Assembly (NCBI GenBank): GCA_937146805.1
Contig: CAKZRR010000019.1
Location: 1 to 42,461, forward strand
Direction of reading: 5' to 3'
DNA from: an uncultured Owenweeksia sp.
GTDB taxonomy: Bacteria > Bacteroidota > Bacteroidia > Flavobacteriales > Schleiferiaceae
DNA: 42,461 nt
Shown: positions 21,578 to 29,203 of the stretch, one piece after another
Position numbering within the stretch: position 1 is the first letter of the stretch
Layout: the number at the start of each line of letters is the position of its first letter
The notes under the pieces: model-generated
The model's database searches: none
Told to the model about the DNA's origin: nothing
The model's input: only the letters and a program-made list of their open reading frames with translations
Made by a program: the position numbers and the translations under genes

Positions 21578-23158
21578 CTATGGATTGGTGATTAGTAATT
21601 TTCGCTCATGGCTGCCTTTTTTATTTTTAAGCTGCAAGGTATACATCGCATTGCGCCATTTTGATACATCAATTTCTAGTTTAACTCCCGGTACCGGGAC
21701 TAATTCTTTATGATACATAAGCTTGCCTTGTGTGTTAAAAATAGATACGGTTACTATTTCGGTTGACTTACCTAGCCCGTTTAGCATCAGCACACCAGTG
21801 CTAACAGGATTAGGCCCATACACAAAATCAAAATTTAGCGGAACAACAGTGTCTGTTTGGTAGGAGCCACCAAGTGCTAAAGTACCCGTTCCAGCAGGGT
21901 CTAACCAATTTTGAAGTTTTCTATTGCTAGTCGTGCCATTCTCATTCCAGTGGTATGATAGTTTACCAAAGTAATCCGCATATTGTGGGGCACTACAGCT
22001 GGCTCCGCCCCCCGTAAGCGTTCCTACTACTAAGCCTTGGGTATCAAATAATGGTGAGCCACTTGAGCCAAACTCCGTAACACCATGTCCGTTTGTGGTA
22101 GCGGTCCAATTAACGGCCCAGTGTGTACCTGGTATAGTGTTGTAGGTGTCGCTGGTAGCTGGGCTGCCATATGTTGATATTTTTTTAATGTCCCCTTCCG
22201 GGTGATGTAATACTACTCCTTTTTGGGGTGCTTGGTTGGCACGAATCCATCCGGCATAATAAGGATGGAAACTGGCCGGTACGGGGTTCATTAATTTAAG
22301 AAGTAAAAAGTCGCTGCCATCATTCCCTCCGCCATCATCACTTCGGGCAATTATTGTTGCTCCTGTAATTCTGTTACTATCTAAAAAACCTTCAGTCGCA
22401 GGGTTACTGCAATCGGGGCTTTCGTAATTAAAGTAGAACACCCATTCTTCTAGATCTTGGGAGCTTACAATGTTATTGCCTTTTAGTCCACAATGCTCGG
22501 CCGTTAATAAATAAGGCTCAAAAGTATAGCCCGTATTGTTAAGAAGAGTACCGGTGCACCAGGAGTAATTAGGTCCTTGTTTAATCAGAATTCGTGCTAA
22601 GGCATTTTTTACATCTTGGTAATTAGCCCCTTCACTGCAATTAACATTTACCTCACAGGGTTTAGAATCTCCAAAATCGGCTGCTTTCTTTTTAACCGGG
22701 TTAAGCTTTTCTAAGCTATAATGAGAAATGGAAACATTAGGAGCGTTTTTCCCCTTGTATGAAAGAATTACCGAATGGTGATAAACTCTACTATTCCATT
22801 TTTTTTGCATTAATCTATCAAAGGTGAGGTATTCGCGTTTCGCCTTGTTTTCATCTAAAACAAAAAGTGTATCACCAAATGGTATATCGGCTTCTAAAAA
22901 AACTCGAATCCCAAACTGAGGAGCAGAGAGTGTCCATTGGTAGCCTGTTTCGGATGGGAACTCGCTTAATTTTTTTTGCAAATTATAAGCCCTCGCATGA
23001 AAATGAAGGGGAGATGCTTCGGAGGCTTCGTTAATTTCTTTAGTAAAGTTTTGGAGGGTTTCGGTAACCTTGTAAAGATGTGTTTGAAAAGGGGGCTGTT
23101 GCCCCCAAAGGGCAATGGTAAAACATAGGAATAGGTAGGTTAACAGGCTTTTTTTCAT
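21578..23158 (-). CDS. T9SS-exported trypsin-like serine protease (lysyl endopeptidase type)
   Basis: A 526-residue exoprotein. The signal peptide (1-20) ends ALWGQQ and a propeptide follows to about 165. The protease domain has an S1-type triad: His222 in LLTAEHC, Asp283 in DGSDFLLLKL and Ser366 in GSSGSPLFD. The GSSGSP form and paired cysteines resemble lysyl endopeptidases (S1E). The last 75-80 residues (from YGPNPVSTGVLMLNGLG to ERKLLITNP) are a type A T9SS sorting domain, so the enzyme should cross the outer membrane and be anchored or released. Its start overlaps the receiver gene stop by 4 bp. Whether specificity is for Lys would need the S1 pocket checked. Confidence 0.92.
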   Translation of the reverse strand: MKKSLLTYLFLCFTIALWGQQPPFQTHLYKVTETLQNFTKEINEASEASPLHFHARAYNLQKKLSEFPSETGYQWTLSAPQFGIRVFLEADIPFGDTLFVLDENKAKREYLTFDRLMQKKWNSRVYHHSVILSYKGKNAPNVSISHYSLEKLNPVKKKAADFGDSKPCEVNVNCSEGANYQDVKNALARILIKQGPNYSWCTGTLLNNTGYTFEPYLLTAEHCGLKGNNIVSSQDLEEWVFYFNYESPDCSNPATEGFLDSNRITGATIIARSDDGGGNDGSDFLLLKLMNPVPASFHPYYAGWIRANQAPQKGVVLHHPEGDIKKISTYGSPATSDTYNTIPGTHWAVNWTATTNGHGVTEFGSSGSPLFDTQGLVVGTLTGGGASCSAPQYADYFGKLSYHWNENGTTSNRKLQNWLDPAGTGTLALGGSYQTDTVVPLNFDFVYGPNPVSTGVLMLNGLGKSTEIVTVSIFNTQGKLMYHKELVPVPGVKLEIDVSKWRNAMYTLQLKNKKGSHERKLLITNP

Positions 23159-23616
23159 GATAATAATCTTTGGCGCAGCAAAAATTCAAGCTGATCGTTT
23201 GCGCGCTCTAATTTATGAAGAAGTTCTTTGTTTTCCCTTCGTAAATTAAAAACCTCCGCAGCGCTCTCTATAGTGCTTTTCAATTCGTCCTCCTGCCAAG
23301 GTTTACTTAAGTAGCGATATACTTGTCCTTTATTAATAGAATCTACCACTGCATTAATATCCGAGTAACCCGTTAGTAGTATGCGCATAGGGTTGGGATT
23401 GTGTTTTCTGATTTCTACTAAAAGTTCAATGCCTGTCATTCCAGGCATGCGCTGATCGGTAATAATTACTTCAAAATCTTCTTTTTTAAATAATTCCAAA
23501 GCTTCGGATCCCGATTCTGCAATGCTAACATCAAATATTCTTCTGAAGGTGGCTTTGAAGGATTGTAGGTTGTTTACTTCATCGTCAACATAAAGCACCT
23601 TAATTTTTTGCTCCAT
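23155..23616 (-). CDS. Single receiver-domain response regulator with coiled-coil tail
   Basis: A 153-residue protein. The receiver domain (5-122) has acidic Asp11 and Asp12, phosphoacceptor Asp54 in IITDQRMPGMTG, the TGYSD switch and Lys in YLSKPW. A C-terminal helix (about 122-153, FNLRRENKELLHKLERAND) likely forms a coiled coil; there is no DNA-binding domain. The receiver is a close paralogue of the hybrid at 27.7 kb (VDDEVNNLQSFKATFRR versus LDDEENNLRSFKAAFRR). It is coupled to the protease gene by a 4-bp overlap and divergent from the ThiF operon. A near-match promoter, TTG then 16 nt then TATTTTG, lies upstream on the - strand. Confidence 0.9.
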   Translation of the reverse strand: MEQKIKVLYVDDEVNNLQSFKATFRRIFDVSIAESGSEALELFKKEDFEVIITDQRMPGMTGIELLVEIRKHNPNPMRILLTGYSDINAVVDSINKGQVYRYLSKPWQEDELKSTIESAAEVFNLRRENKELLHKLERANDQLEFLLRQRLLS

Positions 23617-23732
23617 TTTTATATTTAGATTAAATCTTCAGACAAAATAAGCGATATTTTTTAGACAATGTTTAATTTGGGCACTCTAACCTTTCAACAA
23701 CACAACAGGATAAAATTACACATTACTCTCTC

Positions 23733-24815
23733 ATGGAATTTCTTGCAAACTTAAGGCGCCCCGAAACCGGATGTTATAGCCCCATAATTTACCAGCCTAA
23801 TCAAACTGCTCAGTTGGAAAAAATGGTGCTGGAAAACCAACCCATTCTTCACGATGAGTTGGAGGGAATGGTAAAGGAGCTATTAAAAATCAGAAACCCT
23901 CAAAAAAAGTTGAGTGAGAGTGACCTGGCCGATATGTTTGTGGAGTGGTCAAAATCCAATGATTTAAGCCGGATAAGTAATTATGTGTACTATCCTTGGA
24001 CAAATAAATTAGTAAGGATGCTACGAGAGGATGAGTTTACCGAATTACGAACCTCTCGAAATAAATTTAAAATTACCAATGAGGAACAAAAAAACCTGGC
24101 CAATAAAAAGGTAGGTGTAATTGGTTTGTCCGTTGGACAATCGGTAGCCTTAACCATGGCCATTGAACGCAGTTTTGGAACTCTTAGGATTGCGGATTTC
24201 GATATTTTGGAGCTTTCCAATTTAAATCGAATTCGTAGTGGAGTAGCCAGTGTTGGATTAAAAAAAACAACCATGGTAGCGCGTGAAATAGCGGAGATTG
24301 ATCCCTATTTGAAATTAGAAATATTTGATGAAGGGATAACGCCTGAAAATTTAGATGAGTTTTTAACAGGAAATGGACCTTTGGATTTGTTGATTGAGGA
24401 ATGTGATTCCTTTCAAATTAAAGTCTTAGCAAGACTAAAAGCGCGAGAAAAAGGAATAGCTGTACTAATGGATACAAGCGATAGAGGAATGCTAGATGTT
24501 GAGCGGTTTGATGAGGACTCCACACGCCCACTTTTTCATGGAAAGCTTAGTATAGATAGTTTAGAAGCTTTTCAACAATTGAATGGGGATGAAATTAAAT
24601 CTCTTCTATTTTCGGTTGTAGATTTCCCTTTAACTTCGGAAAGACTAAAATTATCATATGGAGAGATTGGGAAAACCATTACTACTTGGCCTCAATTGTC
24701 GTCAGCGGTAACTTTAGGGGGCGGTGCCACCGCCCATTTGGCACGTAAAATATTACTAGGCCAAAAGGTTCCTTCGGGGAGATTTTATTGCGATATTGAT
24801 CAAATTGTAAATTAA
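23733..24815 (+). CDS. ThiF/E1-like adenylyltransferase family protein
   Basis: A 360-residue protein with a helical N-terminal part (1-120) and a ThiF/MoeB/E1 Rossmann domain (about 120-355). The nucleotide loop is KVGVIGLSVGQSVALT (126-141). LRIADFDILELSNLNR (151-166) carries the Asp, Asn and Arg that contact ATP in E1 enzymes. DLLIEECDSFQIK follows, then a conserved-looking DTSDRGMLDVERFDED. The CxxC zinc site of MoeB/ThiF is missing and no thioester Cys is obvious, so it may adenylate a carboxylate without sulfur or ubiquitin-like transfer. It resembles the N-terminal half of Rv1355c-like proteins. First gene of a five-gene + operon. Confidence 0.85.
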   Translation: MEFLANLRRPETGCYSPIIYQPNQTAQLEKMVLENQPILHDELEGMVKELLKIRNPQKKLSESDLADMFVEWSKSNDLSRISNYVYYPWTNKLVRMLREDEFTELRTSRNKFKITNEEQKNLANKKVGVIGLSVGQSVALTMAIERSFGTLRIADFDILELSNLNRIRSGVASVGLKKTTMVAREIAEIDPYLKLEIFDEGITPENLDEFLTGNGPLDLLIEECDSFQIKVLARLKAREKGIAVLMDTSDRGMLDVERFDEDSTRPLFHGKLSIDSLEAFQQLNGDEIKSLLFSVVDFPLTSERLKLSYGEIGKTITTWPQLSSAVTLGGGATAHLARKILLGQKVPSGRFYCDIDQIVN

Positions 24816-24821
24816 AGAACG

Positions 24822-25598
24822 GTGAAAGAGGGAGTTGTAAAAATAAGAGCATTTCGAGCAATGGATGACGTACGATCCAGCGAAAAGTTTGTAGAAGGTC
24901 ATCAAAAGGTACTAGCCGCCCATGGAGTTAAAAAAGTTACTTCTTTAAATTTGGAATGGATTAGTAATCCCGCTGTTTTTGTTATTAATGTGGAATCGGC
25001 AGATGGCAAGAAGGTTTATGGTGGAGCTAGAGTACAAGCAGCTGGAGGTACAAGTAGATTGCCAATCGAGGAGGCTACGGGGTACATGGATAATAAAGTA
25101 TATGATGAAGTAGAGAAACAATCTATTCACGGCACTGGGGAATTATGCGGTTTGTGGAATTCAGTGGAAGTAGCTGGGCTTGGAATAGGAAGTTTTTTTG
25201 CCACTCGAGCAGGCGTAACACTTTGTAGTCAAATTGGTATAGATTCTTTGTTTGCGCTATGTGCACCGTACACAGTTAGATGGGCGGAGCGAGTAGGTTG
25301 CAAAGTGTTAAGTCATTTAGGAAATGATGGTACGTTTTACTATCCTAAGCTAGACCTACTAGCCACGGCAACGCTTTTGCATGATACAACTACCATGGTT
25401 AATGCAAGACCTGTTGAGCGACAAAAAGTTTTTAATTTACGTAACAATCCAAAGCAAATTTTAGCGGAGAACCCACCGGGAAAAAGATTTGAAGTTGAAA
25501 TAGATTACGATTTGTTTTTACCTACCGCCAATCCGAAAGAGTTTAAGTCACCGATTATGCCCGCGATAAAAAATGCAGAGAATTTCCCTTCCATATAA
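24822..25598 (+). CDS. GNAT/acyltransferase-like protein, possible acyl-signal synthase
   Basis: 258 residues from a GTG at 24822, 6 bp after the thiF stop; the first ATG would cut into the N-terminal strand (VVKIRAFRAMDD). The core resembles a GNAT or autoinducer-synthase/N-acyl amino acid synthase fold: GGARVQAAGGTSRLPIEEATGYMD, then GTGELCGLWNSVEVAGLGIGSFFATRAG, whose VAGLGIG (117-123) matches the acyl-CoA pyrophosphate loop, then LFALCAPYTVRWAERVGCKVL. The C-terminal about 70 residues, with no assigned domain, follow a run of Thr residues (LLHDTTTMVN). The assignment rests on pattern only. It overlaps the sensor kinase gene by 26 bp. Confidence 0.65.
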   Translation: MKEGVVKIRAFRAMDDVRSSEKFVEGHQKVLAAHGVKKVTSLNLEWISNPAVFVINVESADGKKVYGGARVQAAGGTSRLPIEEATGYMDNKVYDEVEKQSIHGTGELCGLWNSVEVAGLGIGSFFATRAGVTLCSQIGIDSLFALCAPYTVRWAERVGCKVLSHLGNDGTFYYPKLDLLATATLLHDTTTMVNARPVERQKVFNLRNNPKQILAENPPGKRFEVEIDYDLFLPTANPKEFKSPIMPAIKNAENFPSI

Positions 25599-27705
25599 AT
25601 TCAAGAATCGCTCATTTGTTTTTTTGTGTCTCGCGTTAGCTTTGAGTTTTTTCAGCAATGGTCAAGACGTAAAAGTTTTATTTCAAATTAACGAGGGCGC
25701 ACCTTATTCGATTGATGAGGCCGTGTCCAGCTCGGCTTTTGAGGCAACTGAAAATATGTCTTTAAATTTTCAGAATGTAACCGGTGAACTGTGGGTGAAG
25801 ATTGAGTTAGACAGTGTTGAAACGGATAGTTATTTGATTTTAAGTAACCCACTTATTGATTCCATTTGTTATTATCAATATGTTGATAACCGTGCGGTAG
25901 ATACCATTTACGCGGGTGATTTTTATTTATTTAAAGAAAGGTCAATTACTCATCCTAAGTTCATATTTCCTATTTCTCCCTCAAATAAGTCGATATCTAT
26001 TTTTTTGAGACTTAAGAGTGAAGATCAGCTATTTGTTCCGATTGAAATTAAAAGTAAGGAGGAGCTAACAGAAACACTATCAAGTTTTAACTTGATTAAA
26101 GGAGTTTACTTTGGTATTGTAATAGTAATGTTTTTATACAATCTTTTTATCGGATTAACAACCAAAGAGAAGAGCTATAATTTGTACGCTGCGTATATCT
26201 TTTTTATTGGTAGCGCACAGGCCTCACTTGAAGGTTACCTTTTTCAATATATCTTTCCAAACTCGCCTATTCTTTTCAATCATTCTATAATAGCAACTTC
26301 GGCTATGGGTGGGATAAGTGCTCTGTTGTTTACAAAAGAATTTTTGCAGGTTAAAAAGTATGCTCCCAAATGGATTGCTGGACTAAATGTATTTATTGGG
26401 GTGTATATGGCGGCTTTGGTCTTTGACTTAATGGGATTTAAAAGCATTAGTAATAACCTGCTAAATACGGGAGGTTTGACTGTTGGGATATATGCACTTT
26501 CAGTTGCAGGAGTTATAGCAAAGCAAAAATTTAGACCGGCCTATTTCTTTCTCATAGCATGGTCGTTTTTTATGGCACTTTTAATTGTCTATGTGCTTCG
26601 TAATTTGAATGTTGTAGATGGTAATGTTTTTACCAATAACTCATTCATGATTGGTAGCGCCATCCAAATTGTGCTACTTTCAATTGCTTTGGCAGATCGC
26701 ATTAATGTTTTGCGAAGAGAAAAGGAGGAGTCGCAGGCAGATGCGCTCAGAGTGTCTCTTGAAAATGAGAAAATAATTAAGGAGCAAAATGTAATGTTAG
26801 AGCAACGTGTGGACGAGCGCACTATGGAATTGCAAGAAACCAACGAAGAGCTAACAGTTACCTTAACCAATCTTAGAGAGACGCAAAGCCAATTGGTAGA
26901 TGCGGAAAAAATGGCCTCATTAGGTCAGCTTACAGCCGGAATTGCGCATGAAATCAACAATCCGATTAACTTTGTCACCTCTAATATTGGCCCCCTTAAA
27001 AGGGATTTAGAGGATGTATATGAGTTGATTGATGCCTATGATAAAATTGAAGATGGACAGCCAAATACTATTGATGAGGCAAGAAGAGTTAAGAAGGATA
27101 TAGACTATGATTTTGTAAAGGAGGAGATTGATACATTGGTAAACGGAATATCAGATGGAGCAGAACGAACTTCTGAAATAGTAAAAGGTTTGCGAAATTT
27201 TAGCAGGTTAGATGAAGACGCCTTAAAAGTGGCAGATATACATGAAGGGCTAGACAGTACCTTGGTTATTTTAAAAAGTAAAATGGGGTCTGAGATTAAT
27301 GTGGTTAAAGATTTTGATAAAGATTTACCGCTCGTTGAGTGCTTCCCTGGTAAGTTGAATCAGGTATTTATGAATATTTTGAACAATGGTATTTATGCCG
27401 TTCAAACTAAGGTGTACGAGAGGGGGAAAAGGCCAACTATTACGTTAAAAACGCGGCAAGAAAATAACGCTGTGGTTATCACTTTAAGCGATAATGGAGT
27501 AGGCATGGACGAACAAACTAAAAATAAAATTTTCGACCCATTTTTTACAACAAAAGATGTAGGAGAGGGAACAGGTCTTGGTATGTCCATAGTATATAAA
27601 ATTATGGATAAACACCGTGGAACAATGAATGTAGAATCTACTGTTGGTAAAGGTTCGGACTTTATAATAACTTTACCGTTACGACAGCCAAATAATTTTG
27701 AATGA
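25573..27705 (+). CDS. 7TMR-DISM sensor histidine kinase
   Basis: A 710-residue kinase. The signal sequence is at 13-30. A 7TMR-DISMED2-type extracytoplasmic beta domain (about 32-165, with GELWVKIEL and ISIFLRLKS) precedes the seven-helix DISM membrane unit (about 176-377). A coiled coil follows (380-445). The HisKA block LGQLTAGIAHEINNPINFV has phosphoacceptor His459. The HATPase domain has the N-box in FMNILNNGIYAV, LSDNGVGMDE, FDPFFTTKDVGEGTGLGMSI and a typical end. The DISM sensor class is known to bind carbohydrates or other small ligands. It overlaps the upstream gene by 26 bp and the downstream hybrid by 4 bp. Confidence 0.94.
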   Translation: MQRISLPYKFKNRSFVFLCLALALSFFSNGQDVKVLFQINEGAPYSIDEAVSSSAFEATENMSLNFQNVTGELWVKIELDSVETDSYLILSNPLIDSICYYQYVDNRAVDTIYAGDFYLFKERSITHPKFIFPISPSNKSISIFLRLKSEDQLFVPIEIKSKEELTETLSSFNLIKGVYFGIVIVMFLYNLFIGLTTKEKSYNLYAAYIFFIGSAQASLEGYLFQYIFPNSPILFNHSIIATSAMGGISALLFTKEFLQVKKYAPKWIAGLNVFIGVYMAALVFDLMGFKSISNNLLNTGGLTVGIYALSVAGVIAKQKFRPAYFFLIAWSFFMALLIVYVLRNLNVVDGNVFTNNSFMIGSAIQIVLLSIALADRINVLRREKEESQADALRVSLENEKIIKEQNVMLEQRVDERTMELQETNEELTVTLTNLRETQSQLVDAEKMASLGQLTAGIAHEINNPINFVTSNIGPLKRDLEDVYELIDAYDKIEDGQPNTIDEARRVKKDIDYDFVKEEIDTLVNGISDGAERTSEIVKGLRNFSRLDEDALKVADIHEGLDSTLVILKSKMGSEINVVKDFDKDLPLVECFPGKLNQVFMNILNNGIYAVQTKVYERGKRPTITLKTRQENNAVVITLSDNGVGMDEQTKNKIFDPFFTTKDVGEGTGLGMSIVYKIMDKHRGTMNVESTVGKGSDFIITLPLRQPNNFE

Positions 27706-28802
27706 CATCTAGTTTAAATAGAAAGAATATTAGGGTATTGTACCTTGATGATGAAGAGAATAATTTACGCTCATTTAAAGCAGCATTTAGGCGTGATTAT
27801 GATGTATATATAGCTTCTACTTCTGAGAAGGCTTTTGATATTGTTAAATCGGTAAAACCTCAGGTTATTTTTTCCGATCAACGAATGCCGGTTACCACTG
27901 GTGTTGAATTCTTCAATGCGGTACGCCAAGTATTTCCGGATCCTGTACGTATTTTAATAACCGGGTATACGGATGTAAATGATATTATTGAGGCCATTAA
28001 CAAGGGGCATATTCATAGATATATTACTAAACCTTGGAGTGAGCAAGAGATTAGAGTAGCCATTGATAATGCCTATGATCTTTTTCAAACAAGAAAGTCT
28101 TTGGATAGCAAGATTACTGAGCTAGAAAAATCGAATTACGAGTTAAGCAGGTTTATCTATAGTGCTTCACACGATTTAAGAGCCCCCATTGCCTCAACCC
28201 TAGGTTTACTTAGAGTGGCAAAGCATGATGTAACAGATGAAGCGGCTTTAGGCTATTTTGATAAAATGGAAGAGACCACCAACACTTTGGATATGTTTGT
28301 TTCCAATATCATTGATTATTATAAAAATGCACGCTTAAATGATGAGTCAGAAGATGTTGATTTTGAGCTGATGATAGAAGATGTGATAGAATCTGTGAAA
28401 AGTTATTTAAATACCAATGATGTTCACATTGATTCTAGCATTAATCAAAAACATAGCTTTAAAGGAGATATTTTTAGAATAAGGGTTATTTTAAGTCAGC
28501 TTATAAGTAATGCTATTAAATTTAAGAAAGAAGACCAAAAACAAGCTCGGATAAAAATTGAGATTGAAGCCGATTTAAATGAGGTAAATATTAATGTTAG
28601 AGACTCAGGTGTTGGGATTTTAACGGATCATGTTCAAAAGGTTTTTCAAATATTTTTTAAAGGTTCTAGTAAATCAGCAGGAAGTGGTATAGGTTTGTAT
28701 ATTGTAAAAGAGGCTTTGGATAGAATGGGAGGAGAGATTTCGGTAGATTCAAAGCCAGGAGAAGGCACTTTATTTTCAATAAAAATTCCAAACAAATTAT
28801 GA
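27702..28802 (+). CDS. Receiver-histidine kinase hybrid (response regulator fused to kinase)
   Basis: A 366-residue cytoplasmic protein. The receiver (about 9-127) has phosphoacceptor Asp59 in VIFSDQRMPVTTG and Lys in YITKPW. A short coiled linker leads to a HisKA domain with His157 in YSASHDLRAPIASTLG. The HATPase has LISNAIKF, VRDSGVGIL and GSGIGLYIVKEALDRMGG. No transmembrane helix. Presumably the upstream DISM kinase phosphorylates Asp59, which gates this kinase, passing phosphate to the following receiver. The receiver is paralogous to the divergent regulator at 23.2-23.6 kb. Confidence 0.94.
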   Translation: MTSSLNRKNIRVLYLDDEENNLRSFKAAFRRDYDVYIASTSEKAFDIVKSVKPQVIFSDQRMPVTTGVEFFNAVRQVFPDPVRILITGYTDVNDIIEAINKGHIHRYITKPWSEQEIRVAIDNAYDLFQTRKSLDSKITELEKSNYELSRFIYSASHDLRAPIASTLGLLRVAKHDVTDEAALGYFDKMEETTNTLDMFVSNIIDYYKNARLNDESEDVDFELMIEDVIESVKSYLNTNDVHIDSSINQKHSFKGDIFRIRVILSQLISNAIKFKKEDQKQARIKIEIEADLNEVNINVRDSGVGILTDHVQKVFQIFFKGSSKSAGSGIGLYIVKEALDRMGGEISVDSKPGEGTLFSIKIPNKL

Positions 28803-29203
28803 CAGTTTCCGAAGTTGGAAGTGTGATGCTAATTGATGATAATCTAACAGATCGCTTTATTCATAAAAAATTATTAGCCATTCATGAGTTCACCAGTGAA
28901 ATTATAGAATGCGAGTCGGCTAGGGAAGGTTTGGAATTTTTTAAGGCAAACAAAGAGTCAAAAGATCAGCTGCCCGATATTATTTTGTTGGATGTTTTGA
29001 TGCCTGAAATGAATGGCTTCGATTTTTTAATTCATCTAGAGGGTATGGAAGATGAATTGGCTAAAAAGCCAATTATTTTTATGCTGAGCTCTACAGATGA
29101 TGAAAGTGACTTACGTAAGGCACGAAGCGTTAGAATGGTAAACAAAATGTTGCGTAAACCCTTCTCACCCGAAGCACTAATTAGCGCTATATCAGAACTC
29201 TGA
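28799..29203 (+). CDS. Single-domain response regulator (Rcp1/CheY-like)
   Basis: A 134-residue stand-alone receiver. The acidic pocket is in [17 protein letters not shown], the phosphoacceptor is Asp65 in [16 protein letters not shown], the switch region is [12 protein letters not shown], and Lys lies in MLRKPFSPE. There is no output domain, so it acts by protein contact or as a phosphate shuttle. It is the last gene of the ThiF operon, overlapping the hybrid kinase gene by 4 bp. Its 3' end overlaps the convergent prfC by 12 bp. Confidence 0.92.

Follow-up and report, generated by a model that had tools for sequence, protein, structure and literature searches.

A candidate make-and-sense operon joining a putative N-acyl amino acid cyclase and a probable acyltransferase to a 7TMR-DISM kinase in Bacteroidota

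We analyzed a 42,461-nucleotide stretch of DNA (the window; positions 1 to 42,461 of contig CAKZRR010000019.1, assembly GCA_937146805.1) from an uncultured Owenweeksia sp. (Flavobacteriales, Schleiferiaceae), in which five genes at positions 23733-29203 encode a ThiF-fold enzyme, a probable acyltransferase (AT), a 7TMR-DISM sensor histidine kinase, a soluble hybrid kinase (REC-HK), and a lone receiver. Comparison with related genomes suggests that this operon is probably a make-and-sense circuit, in which the enzymes make a compound that is sensed by the DISM kinase. A preliminary description of the window had raised the idea that the enzymes make the ligand of the kinase, and the comparison backs it by the clustering of AT with the kinase, by the co-occurrence of the two in genomes, and by the co-variation of AT with the sensor half of the kinase in the family of the window (f1).

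In the proposed circuit, AT would acylate an amino acid at its amino group. The ThiF enzyme would then activate the carboxylate of the N-acyl amino acid with ATP, and the ring would close to a 5(4H)-oxazolone, as has been demonstrated for TrzS and TyzB. Because a flavin oxidase is missing, the expected product here would be an oxazolone that is saturated and reactive, or a compound derived from it. This compound or a derivative would be sensed by the DISM kinase, which may phosphorylate the receiver domain (REC) of the hybrid kinase, the two single receivers, or both. Relatives retain AT and the kinase and swap the tailoring step, which suggests that signal and sensor diversify together. The features of the cluster are as follows (window positions).

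23155-23616, minus strand: divergent receiver protein, 153 aa, REC and a short tail, no HD-GYP (PF00072, 9.9e-24; NF053512, 2.2e-50, REC part)
23617-23732, no strand: 116-bp divergent intergenic region, putative promoter region for both arms
23733-24815, plus strand: gene 1, ThiF-fold cyclase/adenylating enzyme, 360 aa, without a flavin-oxidase domain (PF00899, NF005901)
24822-25598, plus strand: gene 2 (AT), probable amino-acid N-acyltransferase, 258 aa, GTG start (weak GNAT and FeeM matches, hhalign, conserved family)
25573-27705, plus strand: gene 3, 7TMR-DISM sensor histidine kinase, 710 aa (PF07696, PF07695, PF00512, PF02518)
27702-28802, plus strand: gene 4, REC-HK, soluble REC-HisKA-HATPase hybrid, 366 aa (PF00072, PF00512, PF02518)
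28799-29203, plus strand: gene 5, lone receiver domain, 134 aa, without an output domain (PF00072, 1.3e-15)

A recount of the open reading frames reproduced the five back-to-back plus-strand genes of the preliminary description in position, strand and spacing (a gap of 6 bp followed by overlaps of 26, 4, and 4 bp). The divergent receiver gene, 116 bp upstream of gene 1, is a part of the cluster that was absent from that count, and the intergenic region is likely to be the promoter region for both divergent arms.

AT and the DISM kinase form a constant pair

Two samples were searched, 296 genomes of the order and 395 of the phylum, with the window genome (G000) counted in both and loci counted by stop-to-stop frames. 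AT was found in 27 of the 296 order genomes at 29 loci, one gene lying in two frames, and in 13 of the 395 phylum-sample genomes, 12 of them besides the window's own. An orthologous DISM kinase lies within the AT cluster at 35 of the 41 loci, that is, 23 of the 29 in the order (two cut by contig ends) and all 12 further loci in the phylum. These clusters span nine families (f1, f2, f5, f15, f17, f18, f21, f22, and f47). The enzymes are thus not mostly located away from kinases, an arrangement that would have spoken against the idea in the preliminary description. REC-HK stands beside the kinase at 17 of the 29 order loci and at all 12 further loci (one matched in the REC part only), and the divergent receiver adjoins 27 of the 29 and 9 of the 12, respectively. 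The order of the genes varies between clusters (ThiF-AT or AT-ThiF), as do the flanking genes.

Homologues of gene 1 (E≤1e-20) were detected in 24 of the 296 order genomes, every one an AT carrier. A ThiF gene accompanies AT at 25 of the 29 order loci and 10 of the 12 further loci (one of them divided between contigs and another truncated at a contig end), and an oxidase is fused to ThiF in 14 of the 25 ThiF-bearing order units. Two f18 loci carry a 213-aa ICMT/PEMT-family methyltransferase instead of ThiF, and three f15 loci carry an FAD_binding_4 oxidase instead (assigned by Pfam for one and by a hidden Markov model (HMM) for the others). Thus, what stays the same is AT together with the kinase, and what varies is the tailoring step (ThiF, ThiF-oxidase fusion, methyltransferase, or FAD oxidase). 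The cultured relative Phaeocystidibacter luteus (L003) also has AT and ThiF. All of the ThiF substitutes are plausibly enzymes able to act on an N-acyl amino acid.

The kinase accompanies AT in genomes where the two are unlinked

For five of the six AT loci without a kinase nearby, a sensor ortholog was found elsewhere in the same genome at 193-231 bits. REC-HK follows four of these five unlinked kinases, in two cases together with REC, and the fifth runs off its contig. A sensor ortholog of at least 140 bits was present in 26 of the 27 AT carriers and in 1 of the 269 other genomes of the order; this cut-off was chosen after the scores had been seen and the genomes share ancestry, so that Fisher values for the co-occurrence should not be read literally. 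The corresponding counts of AT carriers and others were 26 and 2 at 130 bits, and 27 and 7 at 100 bits. The one AT carrier missed, G015, is explained by its kinase gene being split between contigs, and the sole other genome with such a sensor, G283, is 88% complete. When the phylum sample was searched with the sensor profile, AT carriers held the top 11 best-per-genome scores.

An HMM of the whole kinase, built from 24 order units, gave 750-897 bits for the 12 further AT loci, and 14 high-scoring loci without AT (12 genomes) reached at most 504 bits. The best of these non-AT relatives (504 bits; L133:3292-11954 of genome G414) lies between a REC-HK-like gene and genes for an enzyme and a hybrid kinase, namely a 714-aa protein of the RPE65/carotenoid-oxygenase family (PF03055, 8.4e-30) and a 1095-aa hybrid kinase. 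This single case may represent another make-and-sense operon, built on a different chemistry.

AT varies with the sensor half of the kinase

Gene 3 contains all the domains expected of a 7TMR-DISM histidine kinase: 7TMR-DISMED2 (PF07696, 3.5e-17), 7TMR-DISM_7TM (PF07695, 1.2e-45), HisKA (PF00512, 3.8e-06), and HATPase_c (PF02518, 5.2e-23). We divided it into a sensor half (about residues 1-390) and a transmitter half (about residues 400-710), and compared patristic distances of AT with those of each half in 31 units by partial correlations with 2000 permutations. G218, whose AT lies in two frames, was left out of the AT distances, and G015 out of the sensor distances. An AT fused to an endonuclease domain (G150:C80) was kept out of the profiles. 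In G178, which has two AT copies and two kinases, we assumed which copy goes with which kinase, and we likewise assumed that the G033 pieces on two contigs belong together.

Over all 31 units, the partial correlation of AT with the sensor given the transmitter was 0.52 (0/2000 permutations), and that with the transmitter given the sensor was 0.12 (172/2000). In f1 (19 units), AT and sensor distances were correlated at 0.90; the partial correlation given the transmitter was 0.85 (0/2000), whereas that of AT with the transmitter given the sensor was -0.10. The addition of G253 as a 20th f1 unit left these partial correlations at 0.84 in f1 and 0.54 overall. When f1 was reduced to 11 units of 10 genera (two from g1), the values were 0.86 for the sensor and 0.01 for the transmitter, and a thinned set of 20 units of 19 genera (two from g1) gave 0.30 (9/2000) and 0.21 (71/2000), respectively. 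The three AT groups of f1 required two changes on the sensor tree, which is the minimum, versus four on each of the transmitter, REC-HK, divergent-receiver, and ThiF trees; the G000 and G116 types exemplify two of these groups (A and B).

The window itself is a mosaic in this respect. The nearest relative of G000 is G116, of the same genus, for the divergent receiver (81% identity), the transmitter (72%), and REC-HK (73%), but it is genus g5 for AT (64-67% versus 49% to G116) and for the sensor (39-42% versus about 31%). The switch point in the kinase lies at residues 330-390, the end of the 7TM domain, and the ThiF protein is near a tie between relatives (53 each for G116 and G213). Judged from these identities, such a mosaic would be expected if recombination or selection acted on a matched pair of synthase and sensor.

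Gene 1 is assigned to the cyclases of N-acyl amino acids

Gene 1 matched the Pfam ThiF model (PF00899) at 1.3e-17 and NF005901 ('Rv1355c family protein') at 2e-125, covering positions 20-339 of the 722 of the latter model. Because the match stops at position 339, the flavin-dependent oxidase half is judged to be missing from gene 1. A search of the window genome for an oxidase of the fused type found nothing similar (best E 0.17), and its two PF00881 proteins, neither of which adjoins the cluster, look unrelated to the fused oxidase. A fused ThiF-oxidase relative (L058) covered the whole model at 822 bits, against the curated cut-off of 476. Gene 1 is 40-54% identical to Rv1355c-family and stand-alone relatives. 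In an alignment of six proteins, including two of the Rv1355c family from actinobacterial plasmids, the ATP-site residues G131, G135, D155, D157, N163, R166, K178, and D225 of gene 1 are kept. Asp225 falls within an ECD motif common to Rv1355c-family proteins, and the ATP-site region aligns with the structures of TcdA and UBA5.

The namesake of NF005901, Rv1355c, is TrzS, which together with the acyltransferase TrzA (Rv1356c) makes N-acyl tryptazolones in mycobacteria (PMC12856293). In that pathway, cyclisation precedes desaturation, and the saturated cyclised intermediate builds up when the oxidase is impaired (PMC12856293). Oxazolones do not survive exposure to acid or alcohol (PMC12856293). 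By its sequence, gene 1 is therefore assigned as the cyclase half alone of the Rv1355c/TrzS family, and it would belong with the ATP-dependent cyclases of N-acyl amino acid carboxylates. The carboxylate-activating, ThiF-like enzyme of the preliminary description stands, and is narrowed to this clade of N-acyl-amino-acid cyclases (NF005901; PMC12856293).

Three other ThiF proteins were observed in the course of the search. A 610-aa protein (L073:8555-10387, G178:C55) extends at its C terminus into a region with no match to Pfam or to the oxidase HMM, and is perhaps a decayed oxidase fusion. Streptomyces plasmid NZ_CP109451.1 (L115:5833-7631) encodes a stand-alone, half-length Rv1355c-type ThiF protein (421.8 bits, no oxidase domain), whose gene has a 4-base overlap with a GNAT gene; this GNAT shows no detectable relation to AT, and the pair is thus an analogy only. 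In Streptomyces plasmid NZ_CP109497.1 (L120:4128-7042), a longer ThiF gene overlaps a gene for beta-ketoacyl-ACP synthase 3, which is possibly another acyl-handling partner for ThiF.

AT is a probable remote relative of TrzA

No Pfam family matched AT at E≤1. The matches among 20 members of the AT family were weak and none was significant (GNAT in four, best E 0.016; AstA in two; FeeM in one, 0.28), and the LuxI-family model was absent from the eight families matched by these members at E≤10. Neither the AT sequence nor its 20-row profile gave a significant match in the PDB. An hhalign comparison of a profile of 38 ATs with two TrzA-like proteins, which are encoded on Rhodococcus and Nocardia plasmids and adjoin Rv1355c-family genes, scored 34.7 over 160 columns, above the top score among 231 decoys (29.6 over 54 columns). 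These comparisons suggest that AT is probably an amino-acid N-acyltransferase remotely related to TrzA. The preliminary description had called it an acylating enzyme of GNAT/autoinducer-synthase-like fold; the acylating role is retained in this more specific form.

No relatives of AT were found in the viral contigs or plasmids searched. At one locus (L063:7393-8562, G150:C80), an AT domain is fused to an Mrr-type restriction-endonuclease-like domain (Mrr_cat, 5.2e-27), with no ThiF or kinase nearby.

The receivers of the cluster

The divergent receiver is 45% identical to the REC domain of the hybrid, and its own REC resembles that of RpfG/NosR-type regulators minus their output domain. A Pfam scan of the five-gene operon detected neither a histidine phosphotransfer (HPt) domain nor an output domain, and no DNA-binding regulator is encoded within the cluster of the window. 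The operon had been described as a full phosphorelay headed by a 7TMR-DISM sensor; the DISM kinase, REC-HK, and REC are all present, but the term is too generous because HPt and output domains are lacking. In the relatives G051 and G021, the genes are followed by another kinase gene and by one for a winged-helix response regulator.

Weighing the circuit against other explanations

Several observations weigh against the circuit. At the level of loci, AT stands without a kinase nearby at 6 of the 29 sites in the order sample. The phylum-wide sensor profile is less selective than that in the order: two AT carriers (322 and 284 bits) were outscored by genomes without AT (as high as 335), and the profile had been built with sequences from 7 of the 13 AT carriers in the phylum sample. 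Co-occurrence and co-variation of synthase and sensor, as expected of a quorum-sensing pair, are both observed, but the co-variation is confined to f1 and not observed in the 12 units outside it: the partial correlation of AT with the sensor was 0.03 (828/2000), with no sensor-specific signal, and that with the transmitter given the sensor was 0.35 (32/2000). The tree supports are modest (0.68 and 0.75). As to the enzymes, gene 1 scored 419.7 bits against NF005901, under the curated cut-off of 476, as expected for a half-length protein. The match of AT to the TrzA-like pair is a weak homology (probability 40%), and an AlphaFold model of AT from a three-sequence input had a pLDDT of 38.

Regulated biosynthesis is an alternative that we regard as unlikely, if well worth weighing. 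Here the kinase would sense an external or envelope cue and control an oxazolone or N-acyl amino acid made for another use, such as in the membrane or as an antimicrobial; enzymes and kinase would form one functional unit without the product being the ligand. DISMED2 is a carbohydrate-binding-like domain, and regulators are common in biosynthetic clusters. The retention of the kinase even when it is unlinked from AT would be given equally by regulation alone. N-acyl tyrosines are reported to be antimicrobial, and oxazolone production to be inducible by antibiotics (PMC12856293). On the other hand, regulated biosynthesis alone gives no reason to expect AT to follow the sensor half in preference to the transmitter half, or to expect an exchange of tailoring enzymes next to a constant sensing arm. 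Nor does the cluster of the window contain a DNA-binding regulator.

Shared ancestry and block recombination alone, with AT and sensor correlated only through their adjacency and the rapid evolution of the sensor, seem distinctly improbable. AT and the sensor half are contiguous DNA, and one neutral exchange of this block could have moved both; this is the main alternative for the mosaic of G000 and counts against the circuit. The sensor also evolves faster than any other part, with a mean identity of 32% where the transmitter has 55%, and its specific signal is confined to f1. However, kinase orthologs persist at separate loci for five AT loci, and three such units, with AT and kinase apart, are grouped alike by the AT and sensor trees. 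ThiF, which is equally adjacent to AT on its other side in f1, does not follow the AT groups, as its four changes indicate.

It is very unlikely that the enzymes remove or modify a signal or toxin from other cells and that the kinase measures it, although ligand removal was among the options of the preliminary description: an acyltransferase and an adenylating enzyme could in principle inactivate a compound, but the characterised members named in the pathway papers are all biosynthetic, and the swapped partners are also of tailoring types. The idea that gene 1 activates a protein in the manner of an E1, or modifies tRNA, instead of cyclising a small molecule is scarcely credible, since its matches in PDB and PADLOC (TcdA, UBA5, and E1-E2 models; 2.9e-10 or worse) are far weaker than that to the Rv1355c family, the operon contains no ubiquitin-like or E2 gene, its neighbour is AT, and its relatives are fused to a nitroreductase-type domain.

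Relation to known systems

Synthase-kinase operons as a kind are already known. In CqsA/CqsS, LqsA/LqsS, and RpfF/RpfC/RpfG, the gene for a small-molecule synthase adjoins those for a membrane sensor kinase and a receiver, an arrangement like that in the window; they differ in that their synthases use other chemistry, and in that the window's sensor is a 7TMR-DISM protein with a putative ligand. In ComX/ComP and the agr pherotypes, the signal gene and the sensor half vary together with a conserved transmitter. The pattern around the window is similar, but it is seen in one family only, and the signals of ComX/ComP and agr are peptides. To our knowledge, few cognate pairs of small-molecule signal and receptor have been established in Bacteroidota. 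We tentatively propose, somewhat short of an even expectation, that these loci represent a class of Bacteroidota cell-cell signalling circuits, in which the signals would be N-acyl amino acid derivatives and a dedicated 7TMR-DISM kinase diversifies with the synthase into pherotype-like groups. The form of the signal would then depend on the tailoring enzyme (an oxazolone, a desaturated oxazolone, a methyl ester, or an oxidised form).

If the circuit is real, it would give oxazolones a first physiological role, and Bacteroidota a receptor and a candidate class of signal. The physiological role of oxazolones was called a major unresolved question in the 2025 tryptazolone paper, in which a part in signalling was suggested because these compounds resemble acyl homoserine lactones and because cyclic-di-GMP genes lie nearby (PMC12856293). 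With oxazolone-type enzymes here tied to a single dedicated receptor kinase, one strain would suffice to address the question.

Among the enzyme systems, TrzA/TrzS of mycobacteria and Rhodococcus is similar in that it pairs an acyltransferase with a ThiF cyclase from the NCBIfam family of gene 1, and Bacteroidota relatives carry the same ThiF-oxidase fusion. It differs in that the window protein lacks the oxidase half, the similarity of AT is remote, and PMC12856293 names no kinase and cites cyclic-di-GMP neighbour genes instead. The related tyrazolone pathway, TyzACB of M. tuberculosis (PMC10404671), and OxzAB of Pseudoalteromonas share the acyltransferase, the ThiF cyclase, and an oxidase, separate or fused; as far as the available portion of the source goes, they differ from the window in having the oxidase and in that no sensor kinase is reported. 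Clusters for N-acyl tyrosines (stieleriacines, thalassotalic acids, and kyonggic acids) likewise contain ThiF, nitroreductase, and in some cases methyltransferase genes along with that of an N-acyl amino acid synthase, but the sections available from that paper mention no kinase and no Bacteroidota cluster of that type (PMC12479983).

The word kinase is absent from these three pathway papers, to the extent of the text available for the latter two (PMC12856293, PMC10404671, PMC12479983). A literature search, with subscription papers and preprints outside its coverage, found no paper containing both 7TMR-DISM and ThiF, nor one containing 7TMR-DISM, acyltransferase, and Bacteroid-, and the literature on quorum sensing in Bacteroidota held nothing specific to such a circuit at the level of titles. 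As judged from sequence, the kinase is of a known class, and the enzymes appear to be part of a known pathway or close to it; the combination of the two was not found in print.

Neighbouring genes

On a Rhodococcus plasmid (NZ_CP042915.1, L116:3847-8049), a GGDEF gene lies two genes away, near TrzA-like and Rv1355c-family genes, which echoes the cyclic-di-GMP genes reported for M. tuberculosis. In the window, the divergent receiver gene has a 4-base overlap with a gene for a trypsin-like protease with a type IX secretion (T9SS) sorting domain (21578-23158, minus strand). A similar gene occupies this position in at least two of the relatives tested (L082 and L075), and the protease downstream of the divergent receiver is a possible target of the circuit.

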